Assembly: GCA_950295325.1 (NCBI GenBank)
Contig: OX485806.1
Location: 54,991,169 to 55,055,168 of the forward strand
Direction of reading: 5' to 3'
DNA: 64,000 nucleotides
Origin: Polytrichum commune
Lineage: Eukaryota > Streptophyta > Polytrichopsida > Polytrichales > Polytrichaceae
The position numbers were made by a program, and so were the translations under genes. Each line of letters begins with the position of its first letter. Within the stretch, counting starts at the first letter, position 1. The notes under the pieces are model-generated. The model did no database searches and was not told where the DNA came from. It was given only the letters and a program-made list of their open reading frames with translations. Shown one piece after another: positions 7,488 to 22,994 of the stretch.

Positions 7488-9310
7488 AACTCCTCAATTG
7501 TATTTTGGAACTTCATTTGGTATTATAATAATATTTTACTTGTGTTACATTTATACGTGTTATGTTTTGATTTGTTCAACTTTGTATTTCTATAAGTGTT
7601 ACAAATGCTCAATTTAACACCCTACACCATATTTTTCACTGATACAGTAACATTTTTTCCTGTAATTGTCCACGGCCATAGGACCCATAGTTTACTAAGT
7701 TTAGAAAAAAAACTTTACTAAAAATACATTTAGTCTAAAAATATTGTAACCTTACTGCTCTAAATAACATTTTCATCAAAATATCTCGGAAGTTACCGCT
7801 CACCGCTCACCGCTCGCAAAATAGCTTCGTCCAGGACATGTCTTCCGTTTTTATGTCAATTGTATATAAATTGTTGAAGTGCATTTTGTTTATTTTAAAG
7901 CTTAGAAATATATACATATATATTGTATTCTTCCATAAATGCTACCGTAGTTGAACCCTAGTTTCAATTCATTTCTTCAATTGGATAATCTCACTAGAAG
8001 GACAATGCATTTCCTTCAATGGTTATTTTGCATTTTTAAAAATATGAATAACAGTTTAACACAAAAAAATAAGTTTTATTGCCTCCAAATACCCGTGGGG
8101 CGTTTGGTTATGTTTATGGGCTCATGCTGCCAATTTTAATTGCAGCATTGTACTAACTGAAAAAGCTGAATGATTGCCAATCCTTAAAAGTTGCCTAAGT
8201 TCAGAGGGGGCCTTGGCGAGAATAATAATGAAAATTCTTGTTTATACTCCATCTTTAGTCGTTTCTTAAAGAAGCAACCTGTCATAGAATATTTTAATCT
8301 CCTTAACGAGGTAAATTCTCCATTTAAGTACTAAGTTGAAGTCCATATTTATGGTGTAAATATGGTCAAGTGCATCATATAATTTAGCATATAGTTCTAG
8401 CATCAATGTCAAAATTTGTGATGTATGGGAGGGAATTATGAAAATAAGGAGTGAGAATTAACACTCAAAACATCCATTCTTTAGGGTTTTGAGATATAAG
8501 AAGCAATGTCAATAAGGAGGTTAATACAAGAGACTTTATAGTATATTGCATGGGAGAGTCAACAATTTAAATAAGTTTCATTGGAGTGTGTTATTTGAAT
8601 ACATTTTTTCGAGGTGGCACCTATTCATAATTAGTTTGTATAGTCTAGATAATGTATGGATGAAAGTTATGCTCGTACGTGATAATCACCCTTTTCTAGC
8701 CACTTCAAAAGAGCCATGTGTCAAGAGGTTTTGGACTTAAAGTAGACGTGCTTAATTCAGTTGCTTATCTTAATGAACACCTATCTTTGAGTGGTATGTG
8801 GTTAGATGTAGCTACAAAAATAGAAACCCAAACAAATAAAAAAGATCGGACTATATACTCTATAGTATGATCCCCATCCTAGACGCAATACCTAATGAAC
8901 ATATTTGAGGGGACCTACCTACATGACCGATTAACAAGCACAAGAATATTCACTTGTTGGATTGTATAAACTTCCCCATTTAAATTATTGTTTCGAGGAT
9001 GCCAGCCCTAATTACGCCCTTAGCCTTAAACACTAAAACAAATTTGCGAATTAATTAAAACACAATTTCATTTCAACCTTGAACGGTCCTCATTTAAATC
9101 ACCCTTTCATATAAATGATGACGTCAGCCCTAATTTCACTATATATATAATAACAAAAATTTGCAGTAGGACCCCTTCCACGGATTTGGGGTACTCTTTT
9201 CCCTAAAAATATACATTTACAATTTTGTCCGGACCAAATTCAGTGGTAATAGGATCCTTATGTTTCAATAAATTTTTTAAAAGCGAGCGGAGAAATTCAC
9301 GAAAACATGA
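7488..9310. other. AT-rich non-coding stretch
   Basis: No gene is recognised. The word CCGCTCACCGCTC occurs near 7797-7815, a partly inverted AAAAGCGAGCGGAG at 9280-9293, and related words at 31549 and 32323. These may be ends of a decayed DNA element of about 1.5 kb, but I found no target duplication. The short ORFs at 7951 and 8546 look random. Confidence 0.4.
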
Positions 9311-13499: not shown

Positions 13500-13838
13500 G
13501 GGTGGAGAAGCTTAGTTAGAAGTAGCCGCAGCTAAGGAGCTGGGTTTATGAAGGAGCTGGGTTTATGAAGGAGCTGGGTTTATTTAGTTAGAAGTAAGGA
13601 GTTGGGTTTATTTAGTTAGAAGTAGGGAGCTGGATTTATGAAGGAGCTGGGTTTATTTAGTCAGAAATAGGGAGCTGGGTTTATGAAGGAGCTGGGTTTA
13701 TTTAGTTAGAAGTAGGGAGCTGGATTTATGAAGGAGCTGGGTTTATTTAGTCAGAAATAGGGAGCTGGGTTTATGAAGGAGCTGGGTTTATTTAGTTAGA
13801 AGTAAGGAGCTAGGTTTATGAAGGAGCTGGGTTTATTT
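13500..13838 (+). repeat. 27-bp minisatellite in LTR C1
   Basis: Repeats built on GGAGCTGGGTTTATTTAGTT plus AGAAGTA, alternating with a shorter GGAGCTGGGTTTATGAA form. The array continues at 22987 after the transposon, with the AGTTAGAAGTAGCCGCAGCT word. It has the same position and period as the minisatellite in LTR C2. Confidence 0.85.
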
Positions 13839-13852
13839 CTCGGGGGGTGCAC
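13831..13852. repeat. Left target duplication plus left TIR of the P-like transposon
   Basis: GTTTATTT (13831-13838) is followed at once by CTCGGGGGGTGCAC (13839-13852). Base 13853 breaks the inverted match to the right end. Confidence 0.9.
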
Positions 13853-15319
13853 TGTACTAAACATGTACGAATATACGTGAGTGCACAGGAGGGGTATTAA
13901 TTTGGACCTTGCCGTATTACGTATACATATGGTATACATGTTATAATTTATAGTTACGTACAGATATGGAAGGCCTTTTAAAAGTATACAATAATTGTAC
14001 TTGTATGGTACTGTTACTATACTACATATCATAAGTTTTCATATTGGATGAAATTAGGATTAACTAGGATTAACGATTTTCGTTAGCAACCTTATAGGGT
14101 AATATGAACCATGTACAAGGTGTCAAGGTAATATCGGGGAAAGAGGCAGTATTAGGGTTTTGAAATGATTCGTTCAGCTCAAAGTAACAAGGACCCTTTT
14201 CCCCTCCCATCCCTAGGTTTTTGTTTTCTCTTTTTGTCGGGCGGTAAAGGTTTTTGGCTGTGGACGTTGGGTGGTGGACGTTAGGGTTTCTGGTTTGCTG
14301 GAGGAGGTTCTTTCTCATTGTGGTTTGCCGGAGGAAGTTTTGGCGAACTTAGGATTAGGGTTTAGTGTTTTTGTCAATTTCCTTCGTTGTTGCCGATGGT
14401 CTCTGGGTGTTGAGGAAGTAAGCGGTGGTGTACGCTACTGGAGCAACTCCGAAGTATTTCTCTCTGCCTCTCGGAGTCTCAGGCACTCCTTCACTCGTAG
14501 CTCCTAATCACAACATTCTTGCAACTGAAGATTCATGACACATGCTTAACCCCAGCTGCATTCAGGCCTTGCTCAAGTAACAAACCAATCTGACAAAGTA
14601 TGATTTGAACTTCGATCTTCTGGTCAAGTGATCGTCAGATTGTAGCTTTAGGTTGCAGTATCTCTGTGCGAAGTGGTCTACAAATTCACAAAATCCAGTA
14701 CAATTCAAAAACAATGGAGATTCTTGGGTACATATGTGCTCTTGCATGAGTGATGCTGAAACCTCTTAACATGCCGAAGCAGGATTAGAGCCGAAGAATC
14801 TTTAATGCGTCTCATGTATCAAGAGCCAAAGCTGGAATTTAGTTGTGCAAATCCTCTAGACATTCCTGAATGTGCATCCCAAAAGCATGCTAATGACGTT
14901 AGCCACAAGTCTGGGATGGCGAAGAATGTTGATAATTTGTGGAGAATCGAACAAGTAGATGATTGCAAAACTTGCTATGACTTGTCCCTTCCTCATCGTC
15001 CAGGTACTGCAGAGTTGGTAAAATTATCCTCTCTGTTTCTTAACTCTGTTTTCTGTTGAGCTAAGTTGAAAGGTTTTTACTTACCAAGTTTCTTAAGAGA
15101 GGCGCCTTTCTTCGCCAACAGAGTTGGTGAGAGAGGCGGAAGGTTTCTTTAAGTTGTAAGCTAACGTGTAGATCTGAGAGTGTGGATAAGCATTGCGTTT
15201 GTATCTGGTGAATGTAAGTAGCCTGGTTGCCCTGTCTTTGAAAGCAACTCTTCTGTCTCGCTTTTCTCATCGAGAACAATGCAACAGGGGAGGTGAAACA
15301 TTTGTGTGCCCGTGTGCAG
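13853..15319 (+). other. 5' interior of the P-like transposon, origin unclear
   Basis: No exon could be assigned. The GTTAGGGTTTCTGG and TTAGGATTAGGGTTTAG words near 14280-14360 resemble plant 5' leaders, so this may be the promoter and 5' UTR of the captured DUF1295 gene. The missing first exon(s) should end in phase 0 before 15320. ORFs at 14271-14507 and 14805-15059 have no recognisable product. Confidence 0.4.
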
Positions 15320-17500
15320 GTTCTTTACCAATTTTCATTCTTCGTCATTGCCGCTGGATTCAAGTTTGACAAAGTTACGGACTTCGCTGGTGAGCAATAT
15401 ACTGTGCCCGTTTTCAATTGAACTTTGGATTCTCTTCTTCATAGATGGTAGATCTCACTAGCTTAATTCAGTGCCTTGTGGATTTTGATCGGGATGTTTA
15501 TGGGGAGTATTGCAGGTGGCACAAACTTCATTATACTGGCCGTTCTCACATTTTTCCTTCATGCAACCTGGCACTTTCGACAGGTATATGTCTTCATGCA
15601 AAATTTGTGGGGGGCATGTAAAACATTATTTGTCTTCTTCAGATCCTGTGCTTCAGCAAGGCATTTACTACATAGTAGAGGCTAATCTACCCACGTTGTT
15701 TCTTTAATGGCAGATTGTCCTCACTATCTTAGTCGTACTTTGGGGAATGCGACTGTCCGGCTTCTTGCTCCTCCGGTATGGAACAATCCCTTACTCATTG
15801 GATGCTTTCTTATGGCCAATACATGCTACATAAACCTTAAGACAAAACCTCTTGTCTCAACACTTCAACTGGGTCAACAGAGGAGCTTGAAATGAAATGC
15901 TATGACAAAGATTAAAAAAATCATGCATATTTGAATACAACTGAGAATGATGGCTCAGATGAACTAGTGTAGATCCCTTCTTGCTTGTTGACCAGCAGAT
16001 TCTGCAAGAAAATAACTTCAGAATGTGGAAAATGGAATGTTTAGTATTCTCGCGTGGGGGGAAGACAGACGGTTTGATGACAAGCGAGGCAATCTTCTCA
16101 AGTTCGCTGGATTCTGGACATTTCAGGTTACTCCTGCTTCTCACCTTGGCCTGACTTCACTGATTGAACATGGACACCAATTTTTTCATAGATTTCTTCA
16201 CCATCGATCTGTCATGACTATTGAAGTTTAAGCAAGTATCCCCTGTTTTCAGCAATGAGATGCTATTCAACAAATTGATAACAATGATCTACCTAAGTAC
16301 ATACATGAGACTTAAATAATCCCTTGGGCTTCCTGTATGGTATGTGGTTGTGATTTAGATGAAATTCTTCAATTATTTCAAAGGCACTGACAGCTCCTAC
16401 TGTGAGGGTTTGAAATTAATCCTCGGGCCTCAAAGAAGAAATAAAGGTTGTGCCACTTCATTTGGTGCTAATGTGAAAGCGACCTAGATTGTAATTATGT
16501 TTCTCCATGGTGTTTGGTAACATGCAATTTGGGTCTGGACTGTGAGTCTACATTGTGACTGTTGTCAATGCAAGTGATCATAATCCAAACATCAATGTTG
16601 CGGATATAGTGGGTTGGGTTCTGTGGACCATTGGTGTGGTCATTGAAGCAATTGGCGATCAGCAGAAGCTCAATCTGAAGAAAAACCCTGCAAGCAAGGG
16701 CAGATGGTGTGATGTAGGTGTCTGGAGGTGGTCCAGGCATCCCAACTATTTTGGAGAGGTGATGATCATCAAACTCTACACTCCTTTATCCCTGAGTTAT
16801 TCTGCAAGTAGTATAATCATTAATGACAGAGACTAGTCCTCATTGGCACCAATGTTAGTGCTCTCATCTGCAAATTGTCTATTTGAAGCATGAAGTGCAC
16901 AGTATGTTACATGCATTCCTACCCCTCTTGATTTTTGCATTTTTGTGGTCTCTTGAGAATTATTGTGGGTTTCTATTAGAATGGAGTCGATCTTGAGCAT
17001 GCAACAAAATGATTCAATAATCTTTGAATACTTTCAGAAGTAATATTGTAGAGCAGACTTCCATTGTAGCTGATGTATACTGTGGAAATGGTCATTCTTT
17101 TGACAGTTTGATGTTCTGCAGATTGCTCTGTGGCAGGGGATATTTATAAGCACCACTACAGTTTTAAAAGGTGGTCACTGGGCAGTCATTGCTAGCCCCA
17201 TCTTCATCACACTTCTTCTTCTCTTTGTCAGTGGGATGCCACTGCTCGAGGTAAAACTCTTCTCATGAATTGTTACCTTTTTGTGTTCCTCAAACTGTTG
17301 ATGAGATTTGGTTTGACTAAAGTTTTGGGGCCTAAAATAGATGTTATGTAGGGAATCGCTCTAGGTGCCTGCATTTCACTCTAAAACAACAGTCCCCTAG
17401 TATCGAAGCGTGTTCAATTTGTTGACTCTTTTTTGCAGGAATCAGCTGATAAGAAACATGGAAGCAACCCTAAGTATTGAACTTACAAGAATGAAACAAG
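15320..17500 (+). pseudogene. Captured DUF1295 (steroid 5-alpha-reductase-like) membrane protein gene, 7 exons, broken
   Basis: The exons 15320-15389, 15516-15583, 15714-15775, 16045-16126, about 16524-16758, 17122-17250 and 17439-17500 join in phase. Family hallmarks are FKFDKVTDFAG, TNFIILAVLT, WGEDRRFD, DQQKL, GVWRWSRHPNYFGE and SGMPLLEESADKKHG. DUF1295 proteins are multi-pass membrane proteins related to steroid 5-alpha-reductases; the plant substrate is unknown to me. Damage: exon 5 lacks an AG acceptor (CAT precedes GCA at 16524). It also has one extra base between CTA (16548) and GTG (16555). A TGA at 17478 sits where the family has Arg, consistent with CGA to TGA. The usual last exon (a Pro-rich SPLIP-type end) and the first exon were not found. 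Retained introns point to capture from genomic DNA. It lies wholly inside the P-like transposon. Confidence 0.85.
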
Positions 17501-18411
17501 GTAAGGAACAGATAAGAATAATGCGATCTGTCTTGGTCTCTGCTGTAGTGATATAGGGTTTATGGTGGTGAGTGCCTGAGGATTAAGGGGACCTCCTTCG
17601 ATAATACTTTTGGTACTACTGTGTTGTAGCCATAGAACAGTTTCTTAAAATTTATGCCTCAGTTTTATGATATGTAACTGATTTGCTGATTAGAACTAAA
17701 ATTTCACCGTTGATATTTGCAAAATAGATCTTTCCAAAATGTGAATGTTGACTGCAAGAATTCTCTTACCTCCTCTTTGTTGCAGCGTGCAAAAAAGTTC
17801 ATCTCAACATATTGAAAAGAATTTGTGGATCATAGTTTCCAAATGCCATCCTACTGGGCTCATCTAGAAGGTAAAGGTTCGAACAATGTTATGTCGGCAT
17901 GTATATTTGGAATAACCTCATAAGTAGGAAGTCACTGTGGTCACAATCATGATTGAGCTATTGTTACTTCACACCTTTGATATTTTCCATCATTCTGTAC
18001 AACGATTTGTTTTTTTGTTAAAAACTAGGTGGTTGACCTTGATCTAGAAATGCCTATATGAAAGGTTGTGTATTCTGTCTCAACAACAGTGCTGAATTGT
18101 GGTGTAGACAGAGGAAGGATTTGAGAGGTCTTGCACATCCACATAGCCACGGATTTTGTGTGAATTTTGTGAAAACACAGAAAATTCCAGCCCAAGGAGT
18201 GGAGCAATATGCGTGGACAATTGGAAATGTGATTGGAAAAGCTGATGACTTGCAAAGAAGAAGACCAAGCAGAGGTAACTTTCAATACCATATTCCAAAA
18301 ACGAATATTAAGTGAATTATTCAAATATCAAATTATACTACCAAAATCATCATAAGTTGTAGGAGCTCCACTCTCTAGTACTCATACTAAACATCTCTAT
18401 CATCTAGAGCA
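17501..18411 (+). other. Spacer between captured gene and transposase; possible transposase leader exon
   Basis: The capture boundary must lie in the first part. A frame at 18058-18274 (MKGCVFCLNNSAELWC..., Cys/His-bearing) ends at AGAG/GTAACT. It could splice to CTAGAG/CAATGG at 18410, which keeps frame with ATG 18412. This would add about 72 residues, but it may equally be a 5' UTR. Confidence 0.35.
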
Positions 18412-21400
18412 ATGGATGAAGAGATAGAAGTGAAGGTTGTGTCTATAAATTGTGATGACGAACATACCGAGTTGGGTTTTGTCTTCTCTTCTTTGGGTGC
18501 CACTTACAGTGACGTAAGGTTGGCAATCAAAGAGGATGAAATTACCACATCTGAATTTCAGATGTTGAGTATTGGTAGTAGTGTTTTTTCATCTAAACAA
18601 GAAGAGAAAATGAAATTAAGAGGGGATGTTGTTCACATCAGATTGATAGCTACTTCAAATGGAGGTACTAATAAACGTCCTTTGTCATCGATGGCATCCA
18701 CCACATCCTCAGAGGGTGATGGCCTTGGAAATGGTAACATGAATAAACAACCAAGAATTCAAGAACCTTCAATTGAGGTGATCAATGTAGAGCTTGATGG
18801 GGCTCTACTTGGACCAAGTCGTTTAAATAGTAAGCTTGCATTGGCCAAAGATGTTCAGAAGTGGCAACATGGGATTCTTAATACAAGAAGGAAAATTAAG
18901 AAACTTGGACGACATGATGCTTTGGAGTTGGAAACAAGGGATCAAGGAAAGAATGTCTTTTTCCATCTCTTTTGTCATGAATGTCAAGAGAGATATCATC
19001 GATCAGGTAGCAACAAGCCGTGGGATGCATGTGCTAATTATTTATGGTCACACATTAATTCAGATGGACATTTGAAGAATTATGAAGTCAGGCATGGACT
19101 GGTAAATAATTTAGAACATGCAAAAACAAACTATAACAACGACAATGAAGAAACCTTGGTTGAAAACAAGTTTAGGGTCCAAGAAGCACTTGGAAGAATT
19201 AAACTCTTTGAAGTTGAGTTTCCTACAAATAAATTTGAACTTGTTGATGCCACCGTTGGCAATTATTCTAGACTCGGGGCAGTGAAAATTCATTGTACCG
19301 TCGATAACAAGTGGATGCATTTGTTTCCAAAAACTGGCACTTTAGAGAGCAACATGCGTGAGCATGTCATTGGAAAGTCCCATCATGATGCAGTTTCACA
19401 CATTTCTAGTGGTTGTTCCACCAAATCAGATCCCAAATCTAAAGGTCGTCCTTCTAAACCTTCATCATCAAAGGATCCTAGGCAGAAAGATCTAAGTTCA
19501 TTTTTGGTGAATGTAGGTGTCCCAAGTGTTGATGACTCTTCTACTAATGATGGGGTTGATGCTTTATAGCAATCAAACAATTATTCCCACCTCTTGTCCA
19601 TGTGTTGGGGTTTGTGGGATGACAGGTGGGACTATAATGGTGTGACAATGGATTTAAAGCCATTCTTGGACGACCTTAAGAAAGGAAAGAAGTGGTATGC
19701 AGAACCTTTCACTCGTGCTTACATTCAAAATGGTAGCATTGAATATGTTATCAATGGGACTTTTCGTCATATAAATTGTGCTCGCGTTTCTTTGATTGGA
19801 GGTGAAGGTTTTGTTGGACTTCGATGCTCTAAATGTTCTTCAATTCCTATTGAAAATGATTTTAGAATGAGGGTTTATCGTTCTAAAAAGACCAAGAGTC
19901 GCAGATGTGAACGGAATTTCAAAAGAGGTGTCCGGTTGGGATATTATGGTAGGCTTGAAATTATTAAACTTGCTCAATCCTCTCGAAAAGAAGCTAGGTC
20001 TTTACGGTCAAATTTGTGGAGAGCAAGAGTTAGAGTTGCAACTCTTTCTGTGAAAGTCAGATCATTGCGGGAATCTTCAGTTGAGTATCATGGTAGAGGT
20101 GATGTGAAAGCTTTTTGTCACAATATCATTGCGGCACATAACCATGGTAAGTTTGAAGGTAAGGAGTCATTATGGGACTTTCTTACTGATATAAGCAAGA
20201 ATATAGGAAAGGACGATAAGGCAAAAAGATACAACAAGACGACCAAAGCTATGTTTGAAACCATCAAGTTATGGGGTGGTCCTAGACTCCATCATTTCTT
20301 GTCAATTAACATGGCTGGTCCCTCTTTGGATACCACCAAGCGAGGACTTTGAAAAGGATTGAAATACAAAATTGGAGAATGCGACGAAGTTTTCAGCCAC
20401 ATTGCCGGTGTCTATAAATCTGTTATGGAAATGGCAAATATCCCTCTTGGAAAGGTACCTTCTATGGTAGCAGAAGATGAAACTGTTGTTAAAAAGGCTG
20501 TGAGATGGATAGCTAGGGATAATACTTTGGTTGGATTTTGTGGTGTTGCTGAAAATCATAATTGCATCTCTAATTTTGTTGTGAATGTAGGGTCTGAAAT
20601 TGAGGGATATGAAAATATTGTGCAAGCGTTTAAAATGAATATTAGAGCTCATTTTGCCCGGGTTTTGATAGTGAATCCTTTGCATCCTAGATTGCCTAGG
20701 TTAGTGATACTAATTCAACTAACTTGCAACCGTTTTGATGCTGCGTTTGTTCGTAATCAATGGGAAAAGGTAAAGGCACTGTGGTCTATCCATTTGTTGG
20801 ATGTTCTTGGGCCATTGATAGGTCATGCATCAGATGGAGATGCTCGTAGGAGAAAGTTGATGCTTGAAGATTATGGGGCAGTTGATGGTATTCGATTTAC
20901 CATTCCATGGGATGGATGGTTATTTAGTGCCAAGGTCTTAGCAAATTCCAACGTTTATGGTTTACATGATCAAGACTTTGTGCACAATGGGAAGAAGCTT
21001 GTAAATCCTTTGGACTCACCTACACGCCATTTGATTTTGGGCAAGGAACATGCATCCCTTAACCACATCTATCTTGTATATGCTTCTTTTTCTGTTGATC
21101 AACATGGGTTGCAGGAAGGAGACATTAAGAGAGAGGATCGACAAAATTGGACTGCCGTTCAACGCCTTGCATCCAAAAAAGTGCAAAATTGTTTATTGGA
21201 ACTTCGAGAATGTGCACAACATCGAAAGGAGAGGACAAAGGGTACACAATACTACTTAAAGGTTGTATCTTCCTACATAGATATCTTTCTTTCTACTCAC
21301 TTGTCTTTGTTTGATAAATGTAAAGCTGCATCAAAAGTATCATTATTTCTTCGTTTGTGGAAACTATGGTTGCATTTAGGGACCCACACTTATTCTTTGA

Positions 21401-22743
21401 AGACAAATTTTATTAGTCGTCAAGCTTATTTAGATATGCAGATTTCGTGTCATTATATTGTGTTGCTTATCAAGTTGTTCAAGGATAAGTACAACCACTT
21501 AGAAGTTCCATTTGGCTTGCTTGGATCAGATGTTTGTGAAATTTTTTTCAGTAAAGTCGGTGGTATGATTTCAAACGAGAGGAGCTATGATGGGATTGAT
21601 TTTGTGGAAAGTGCAGGAGCATTAGCACGCATTGCAGAAATTGAGGCCGATCCTACTGGTCCACGTTTTGTGAGGGCTCACAAGAAACAAACTCACATAT
21701 GGAATGAGTTGGAGAAGAATTCTACATTAGAAGCTGCAGATTTGAGAGATTATTCATGTGTGGAAAATGATGATCTCATTGTCTTAGCTTTGAAGTTGGG
21801 CTTTCAAGAGGCTCAAGAAATGTGTGCTGAATTGGGTATGAAACCCGATGTTGTGAGAGATGGCAGTTGGTGGGTAGAACCATGGATACATGAAAAAAAA
21901 ATTGAAGCTCATTTGTTTGGAAGTATGGAGGAAGATGAATGTGATTATGATCACATATTGATTGATGATCCTATTACACAGGGTGGTGAAAAGGAAGATT
22001 GTGGTGTTGAAGGAGGCAATTCAAATTCATGCAAGGATGCTTTCATAGAGGCTGAAGGGTTGCAGTCATTGGCTGAAGATGACATAAATGAAGATGTTGA
22101 GTTGGAGAGTCAACTTCGACATACTTTGGATATTCTTGTTGATGAACATGAAGGTGTTGAAATTCCCTCTCTATCAAATGCAAAGTCAGCTGTGGCTTAT
22201 GTAATGGTAGGGGAGTCTAGAATTTTTAAAAGTACACTTGTTAGTCAATTGAATGGCAATCCTTCTTTGTCTAAAGATCGGTTGACTCGAATTAGAGCTG
22301 GCATATTATATATGAAGCCTAAACTCCTGAGTGCTGGAAACCATGACACTTTGTTAAAGCTTGGTTGTCACTGTGGTGTGTGTTTTTTGAACACACCTGA
22401 AGCTAAAACTGTGAAAAAACGAGGTAGGCCAAAAAAATCTACTCAAGTTAAGGTTTGGTTTGTTGGGAGAGTTTATAGGATGCGGAGGAAGTTTGGTAAT
22501 CGTTGGGTGGAGTATAGGGATCCAATTGACTTGATGGACCGTCCATCAAACGTGGAGATTGGTTTATGTTGGTATCAAAAAGGGGCTAACAACAAGTGGA
22601 CATATGATCTTACTGATCATTTGATGGTAGACTTAGAGACAATAATTGCATTGGCTACAATGACATATATTGGTGAATCAAATGTTTATGAGTTACATCC
22701 GGGAGACGAAAAAGTTTTCAACGACTTTGCTGATGAAAGCTAG
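18412..22743 (+). pseudogene. P-like DDE transposase, one frame broken by two stops
   Basis: Frame 1 runs uninterrupted for 1,443 codons except for TAG 19567-19569 and TGA 20350-20352. The first 385 codons hold a Cys/His cluster (FCHECQERYH ... WDACANYLWSHI), a second His-rich finger-like motif (LESNMREHVIGKSHHDAV) and an AT-hook-like KSKGRPSKP: probably the DNA-binding part. The catalytic part has EDET (Asp codon 20476), SDGDARRRK (20833), QDFVHNGKKL and SDVCEIFFSKV (Glu codon 21538), an RNase H-like DDE order. A classic AT hook (KKRGRPKK, about 22414-22437) and an acidic linker follow. The expected role is transposition of the host element in the nucleus. The first stop is followed by CAATCA, a TMV-type readthrough context. 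The second has no such context. Both fit C-to-T change from CAG and CGA. The P-like assignment is inference. Confidence 0.75.
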
Positions 22744-22972
22744 GATATTTTGTTATACATATTATAGGGGTTGATTATTGTTCAAAAGTATATTTGTATA
22801 CTTATGGTAATGACTATATATGAATGGATGTTTTTTTGTGTATACATATTGTCACCTGTATATTTATTGTTGCAATTGTATGTGTATTGCTTCATTTCAC
22901 AAAAAAAAACTTGTATATAGGGGGTTTTTAGAATATGCAGCGAACGCACGTGATTCTGGGTTTTAATGAAAG
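22744..22972 (+). other. 3' end of the P-like transposon
   Basis: An AT-rich 3' untranslated region with repeated ATATGTATAC-like words and no coding content. The terminal 40 bp before the TIR are less AT-rich (CAGCGAACGCACGTGATTC). Confidence 0.6.
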
Positions 22973-22994
22973 GTGCACCCCCCGAGGTTTATTT
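22973..22994. repeat. Right TIR plus right target duplication of the P-like transposon
   Basis: GTGCACCCCCCGAG (22973-22986) is the exact complement of the left end. It is followed by GTTTATTT (22987-22994) and then by resumed minisatellite. Confidence 0.9.

Follow-up and report, generated by a model that had tools for sequence, protein, structure and literature searches.

A 64,000-nucleotide stretch of the genome of the moss Polytrichum commune (hereafter the window; G000:C4:54991169-55055168, genome size 407.8 Mb) contains a 9,148-bp P-like cut-and-paste transposon (13839-22986) which, as we read it, took up host DNA, including seven exons of a DUF1295 membrane-protein gene, and later moved with this cargo. 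We place the probability of this reading at roughly 0.82. Capture of host DNA followed by movement is, taken by itself, very highly probable, and for uptake by repair of an excision gap in particular the odds are slightly better than even. The first-pass annotation had proposed a P-like transposon with a captured host gene, and this is supported by the element ends, a transposase model with a predicted P-type fold, an intact donor gene and a second chimeric copy at another locus (the C3 copy).

Documented cases of gene capture in plants involve Mutator-like elements (MULEs), CACTA, hAT, PIF and Mariner transposons and Helitrons. We found no report of capture by a P-type element in the openly licensed literature, and the annotation likewise knew of no described case; nor did the literature searched yield a description of a P-like lineage in mosses. 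A P-type element with traceable cargo from several sources would extend gene capture to the P superfamily. For the Drosophila P element, both the biochemistry of the transposase and the repair of the gap have been examined in detail, which makes the capture step accessible to tests. The data also point to a rich P-like lineage in the moss genome.

Element borders and target site

The element starts with the 14-bp terminal inverted repeat (TIR) CTCGGGGGGTGCAC (13839-13852, plus strand) and ends with its exact complement (22973-22986, minus strand). It is bordered by a perfect 8-bp target-site duplication, GTTTATTT, at 13831-13838 and 22987-22994 (neither assigned to a strand). Duplications of this length are a trait of the P superfamily and also of the hAT superfamily. 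A minisatellite array occupies 13534-13838 (TRF), and reading across the two flanks restores a normal array unit. Perfect TIRs, an 8-bp duplication and a rebuilt minisatellite target had all been recognised in the first-pass annotation.

The same ends were found at a minimum of 39 other places in addition to the window, with 97-98% identity over the first 262 bp of the element, which served as the query (920 first-look candidates, 39 plus the window scored). Since they recur genome-wide, they lie beyond chance.

The captured DUF1295 gene piece and its donor

The captured DUF1295 DNA (15298-17555, plus strand) is 97% identical to a gene at G000:C2:21.14 Mb (match C2:21143482-21145680). This donor came from a genome search with window 15200-17500 in which 5/5 candidates were scored; the other matches were a partial copy at C3:10.42 Mb, which is part of the C3 copy, a 99-bp piece at C3:15.38 Mb and a 76-77% relative at C2:39.54 Mb, the paralogue (72-80%) that serves as outgroup below. 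The donor gene model, based on splice signals and drawn by eye, comprises nine exons; every intron is GT-AG, the frame of 296 amino acids (aa) is intact and the protein matches Pfam DUF1295 (E 5.8e-86). It is the intact gene elsewhere whose existence the annotation had named as a check.

The captured piece spans exons 2-8 together with the adjoining 22 bp of intron 1 and 56 bp of intron 8; exons 1 and 9 are missing. The seven-exon fragment on the transposase strand thus stands as first described, with its extent corrected to 15298-17555. Introns are retained and the piece ends within introns, and it was therefore DNA, not RNA, that was copied. Three lesions that the donor lacks make the captured piece a pseudogene: a frameshift at about 16548, an altered splice acceptor at donor exon 6 and, in exon 8, a premature stop (17478-17480).

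A mosaic of several sources

Most of the 14.5-18.2 kb region outside DUF1295 derives from other loci, which with the DUF1295 donor bring the sources to five (24/24 and 18/18 candidates scored in the source searches). Upstream of the gene piece, 14497-14864 is 96% identical to G000:C7:574764-575131, 14863-15020 is 92% identical to G000:C1:31620180-31620337 (minus) and 15019-15298 is 93% identical to G000:C3:15381134-15381422 (minus); downstream, 17597-18153 is 97% identical to G000:C2:66497973-66498529 (all plus strand in the window). The first four captured pieces adjoin with 2, 2 and 1 shared bases at their joints. Between DUF1295 and the last piece lies a 41-bp joining piece (17556-17596, plus strand), partly shared with the C3 copy and with a further locus, L042. 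A 66-bp piece at 14355-14420 (plus strand) has 17 further occurrences in the genome, with 91-92% identity and in one case over 60 bp.

Chimeric relatives and evidence of movement

The C3 copy (C3:10422782-10427038, continuing at 10479977 beyond an interruption of about 53 kb) has three features in common with the window: DUF1295 sequence starting at 16632, the 17555 joint and the transposase (98%), with gene piece and transposase in the same order. Donor, window and C3 copy were compared over 917 ungapped columns, in which 16 differences were shared by both element copies, 13 were found only in the window and 7 only in C3; the two element copies also share two indels relative to the donor. When the 16 shared differences are polarised against the paralogue at C2:39.54 Mb, ten of them, all intronic, cannot be placed, and the remainder divide equally between the element side, which includes the early stop, and the donor side. 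The common joint, common stop and common transposase point to one capture before the copies separated.

The stop at 19567 in the transposase is found in both copies, and further stops are private to each. Since the first of these is shared, the chimera probably had a broken transposase of its own by the time the two copies separated, and from the shared and private stops together we infer that transposase from another source moved it. Parts of the mosaic are also joined to 3′ element sequence at two other places, L042 (C1:32.47 Mb), where the joint 17596/17597 is repeated, and C3:58.798 Mb, known by its coordinates only.

As a separate observation, the approximately 53 kb that split the C3 transposase copy (G000:C3:10427040-10479976, L035 9540 to L040 77) have CACTA-type ends, CACTACTAGG, and a 3-bp duplication, ATG. 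The likeliest identity of the block is a CACTA element, which may contain nested insertions.

The transposase

The transposase is encoded on the plus strand in three same-frame pieces: an N-terminal piece (18412-19569) closed by TAG at 19567, a middle piece (19570-20352) closed by TGA at 20350, a stop absent from the C3 copy, and a catalytic and C-terminal piece of 794 aa (20359-22743). The annotation's transposase frame is accordingly present, with the correction that stops divide it into three. In a structure model of the 794-aa piece, a P-transposase fold with an RNase H-like core of P type is predicted at residues 2-428 and a BAH-like fold at residues 661-784. D161 and E394 are invariant in an alignment of 26 sequences, and AEDET (D40) is in its consensus. 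By the aligned ranges, E394 would lie roughly at the position of the last catalytic residue of P.

Compared with the Drosophila P element (DmTNP; PDB 6p5a, 6pe2), the moss transposase shows 14% identity, and the element differs in its 14-bp TIR, its plant-lineage host and the predicted additional BAH-like region at the C-terminus. An N-terminal THAP domain is typical of animal members of the P superfamily; Pfam gave no THAP match in the broken window frames, and the part modelled was the 794-aa piece. No Pfam transposase family was found for the three window frames or for eight relatives, two of which had weak Pfam matches to unrelated families.

In the search for relatives, 57 of 3,008 candidates were scored, and among these no other family copy covers the whole 794-aa piece. 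Nine of the scored matches, with 41-44% identity, have open frames of 1,493-1,549 aa without a stop (C6:18.75, C5:50.06, C5:50.08, C4:41.30, C3:22.76, C3:22.48, C6:6.80, C3:38.71 and C3:23.85 Mb); the frame at C6:18.75 Mb measures 1,506 aa. These matches are candidate suppliers of transposase, and they suggest that P-like elements have multiplied strongly in this genome and are in part intact.

Short family members

The 20 best-scoring of the 39 places were fetched, a choice biased accordingly, and all 20 copies are short (781-1,958 bp). In 11 of them element positions 1-355 run straight into 8716-9148, in two 1-441 is joined to 8697-9148, and in the other seven the ends flank a leader piece missing from the window copy. 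The family 5′ terminal region common to these copies corresponds to 13839-14256 (plus strand), its end varying by copy (14193, about 14256 or 14279), and the 3′ terminal region to 22744-22986 (plus strand). Sixteen copies have perfect 8-bp duplications, three have duplications with 1-2 mismatches and one (L018) has none. Median pairwise divergence over the ends is 2.4% (21 copies, window included). Three copies of 1,270 bp (L026, L027 and L028) do not differ from one another over the 795 alignment columns of the ends that were compared, nor do L020 and L025; the duplications differ within both sets, which indicates recent transposition in the family.

One sister element, the 1,958-bp L012, has a 391-bp insert in its interior (8086-8476, minus) with a 55-aa open-frame stretch starting MVGLSS, possibly a second, independent host capture.

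Proposed mechanism and alternatives

We suggest that a P-like element was excised and that the gap would have been repaired by copying, the copying strand jumping to other chromosomes and patching host DNA between intact ends. The mosaic at 14.3-18.2 kb could have arisen through successive jumps or rounds; it lies directly before the transposase frame, where it would take the place of the 5′ leader found in some sister copies. With both element ends preserved, the chimera could be mobilised by transposase acting in trans.

Several observations weigh against this account. None of the 20 short copies, fetched among the at least 39 places with the same TIR that had been named as a check, contains DUF1295, nor does any of them hold transposase sequence from before window 22158, and the cargo-bearing lineage is a small minority of the family. 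The region 14257-14496 was traced in part, 18154-18411 has no traced source, and for 17556-17596 none was found outside element copies. The proteins have no sequence-level match to P proteins (Pfam; PDB profile). As regards movement, only 3/16 of the shared differences are demonstrably element-side, with 3 donor-side; the C3 copy breaks off at 16632 on the left, on the right it is interrupted by some 53 kb of DNA from outside the element and broken twice more, and its own ends were not recovered. Its transposition is deduced from its place on another chromosome and not from a duplication of its own, and segmental duplication is a less probable route for this copy. Gap repair is likewise a step that we infer, and joints this short are also compatible with end joining and with the fusion of tandem elements.

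Such fusion is the core of a model put forward for Pack-CACTA and applied to further superfamilies as well (accessible parts of PMC8903248 and PMC13317346), in which two copies that inserted near each other, one on each side of a host gene, move as a unit and lose their inner ends. We consider it improbable here. Five distant sources would need repeated rounds, no TIR was found inside the element (3 mismatches allowed) and no family TIR in the 10 kb around the donor (2 errors allowed). Distant pieces that abut with 1-2 shared bases, with no inner ends, fit gap repair better than tandem fusion.

Mosaics of several sources are typical of plant Helitrons and Pack-MULEs. An element of either kind could have collected the pieces and become nested inside the P-like element, a mere carrier, and the mosaic itself and the 66-bp piece repeated at 17 other places would fit this. 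We nevertheless hold it to be a poor prospect. Of five exact 10-bp inverted-repeat pairs between 14240-15330 and 17540-18430, none had duplicated flanks by eye; a strict perfect-stem test, which would miss degraded ends, found no hairpin-CTRR end at 17400-18420; and no repeated family was matched at the outer edges of the block (18/18 and 24/24 scored, very common words skipped).

That the DUF1295 gene was resident, with element ends flanking it by chance or through segmental duplication, is barely credible: the unrecovered ends of the C3 copy speak for it, and it is contradicted by the duplication in a minisatellite whose unit is restored, by the intact donor elsewhere and the captured part stopping within introns, and by the C3 copy, which holds transposase and gene piece in the same order. 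Weakest of all is an assembly artefact, to which the repeats flanking the site would lend themselves, since the C3 copy independently repeats the joint at 17555 and L042 that at 17596/17597, each with its own substitutions.

Comparison with known gene-capturing elements

The accessible part of a study of Anopheles gambiae describes P-type miniature inverted-repeat transposable elements (P-MITEs) of 205-2,450 bp with P-type ends, 8-bp duplications and internal DNA unrelated to P, for which ectopic-template gap repair was proposed and no captured gene is reported there (PMC1562414). The moss element, in contrast, has seven identifiable exons, an intact donor and an adjoining transposase.

With Pack-TYPE elements, Pack-MULEs among them, it has in common that a host gene fragment lies between intact TIRs with a duplication, in a TIR element amplified in the genome. 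Pack-TYPE elements are defined as non-autonomous, and the accessible text covers MULE, CACTA, hAT, PIF and Mariner elements, with P unmentioned there (PMC8903248). The moss element differs from these transposase-free elements in keeping transposase sequence, broken by stops. In this it resembles the transduplicating elements of grapevine, in which captured exons and introns were documented for all five classical plant superfamilies studied, some beside transposase frames; the same source, as far as accessible, counts P among the superfamilies undescribed in plants up to 2008 (PMC2528002). It is conceivable, although we would not expect it, that P-like transposons form a general gene-shuffling system of mosses, with many intact families, repeated capture by ectopic gap repair, movement in trans and a chromatin-reading module of BAH type.

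Additional short family

Another short family, some 340 bp long and without a match in the window, was encountered in L014 (8316-8665, nested), L011 (3822-4157) and L039. Its members have a long G run and the TIRs CTCGGGGGG, the start of which resembles the TIR of the P-like element.
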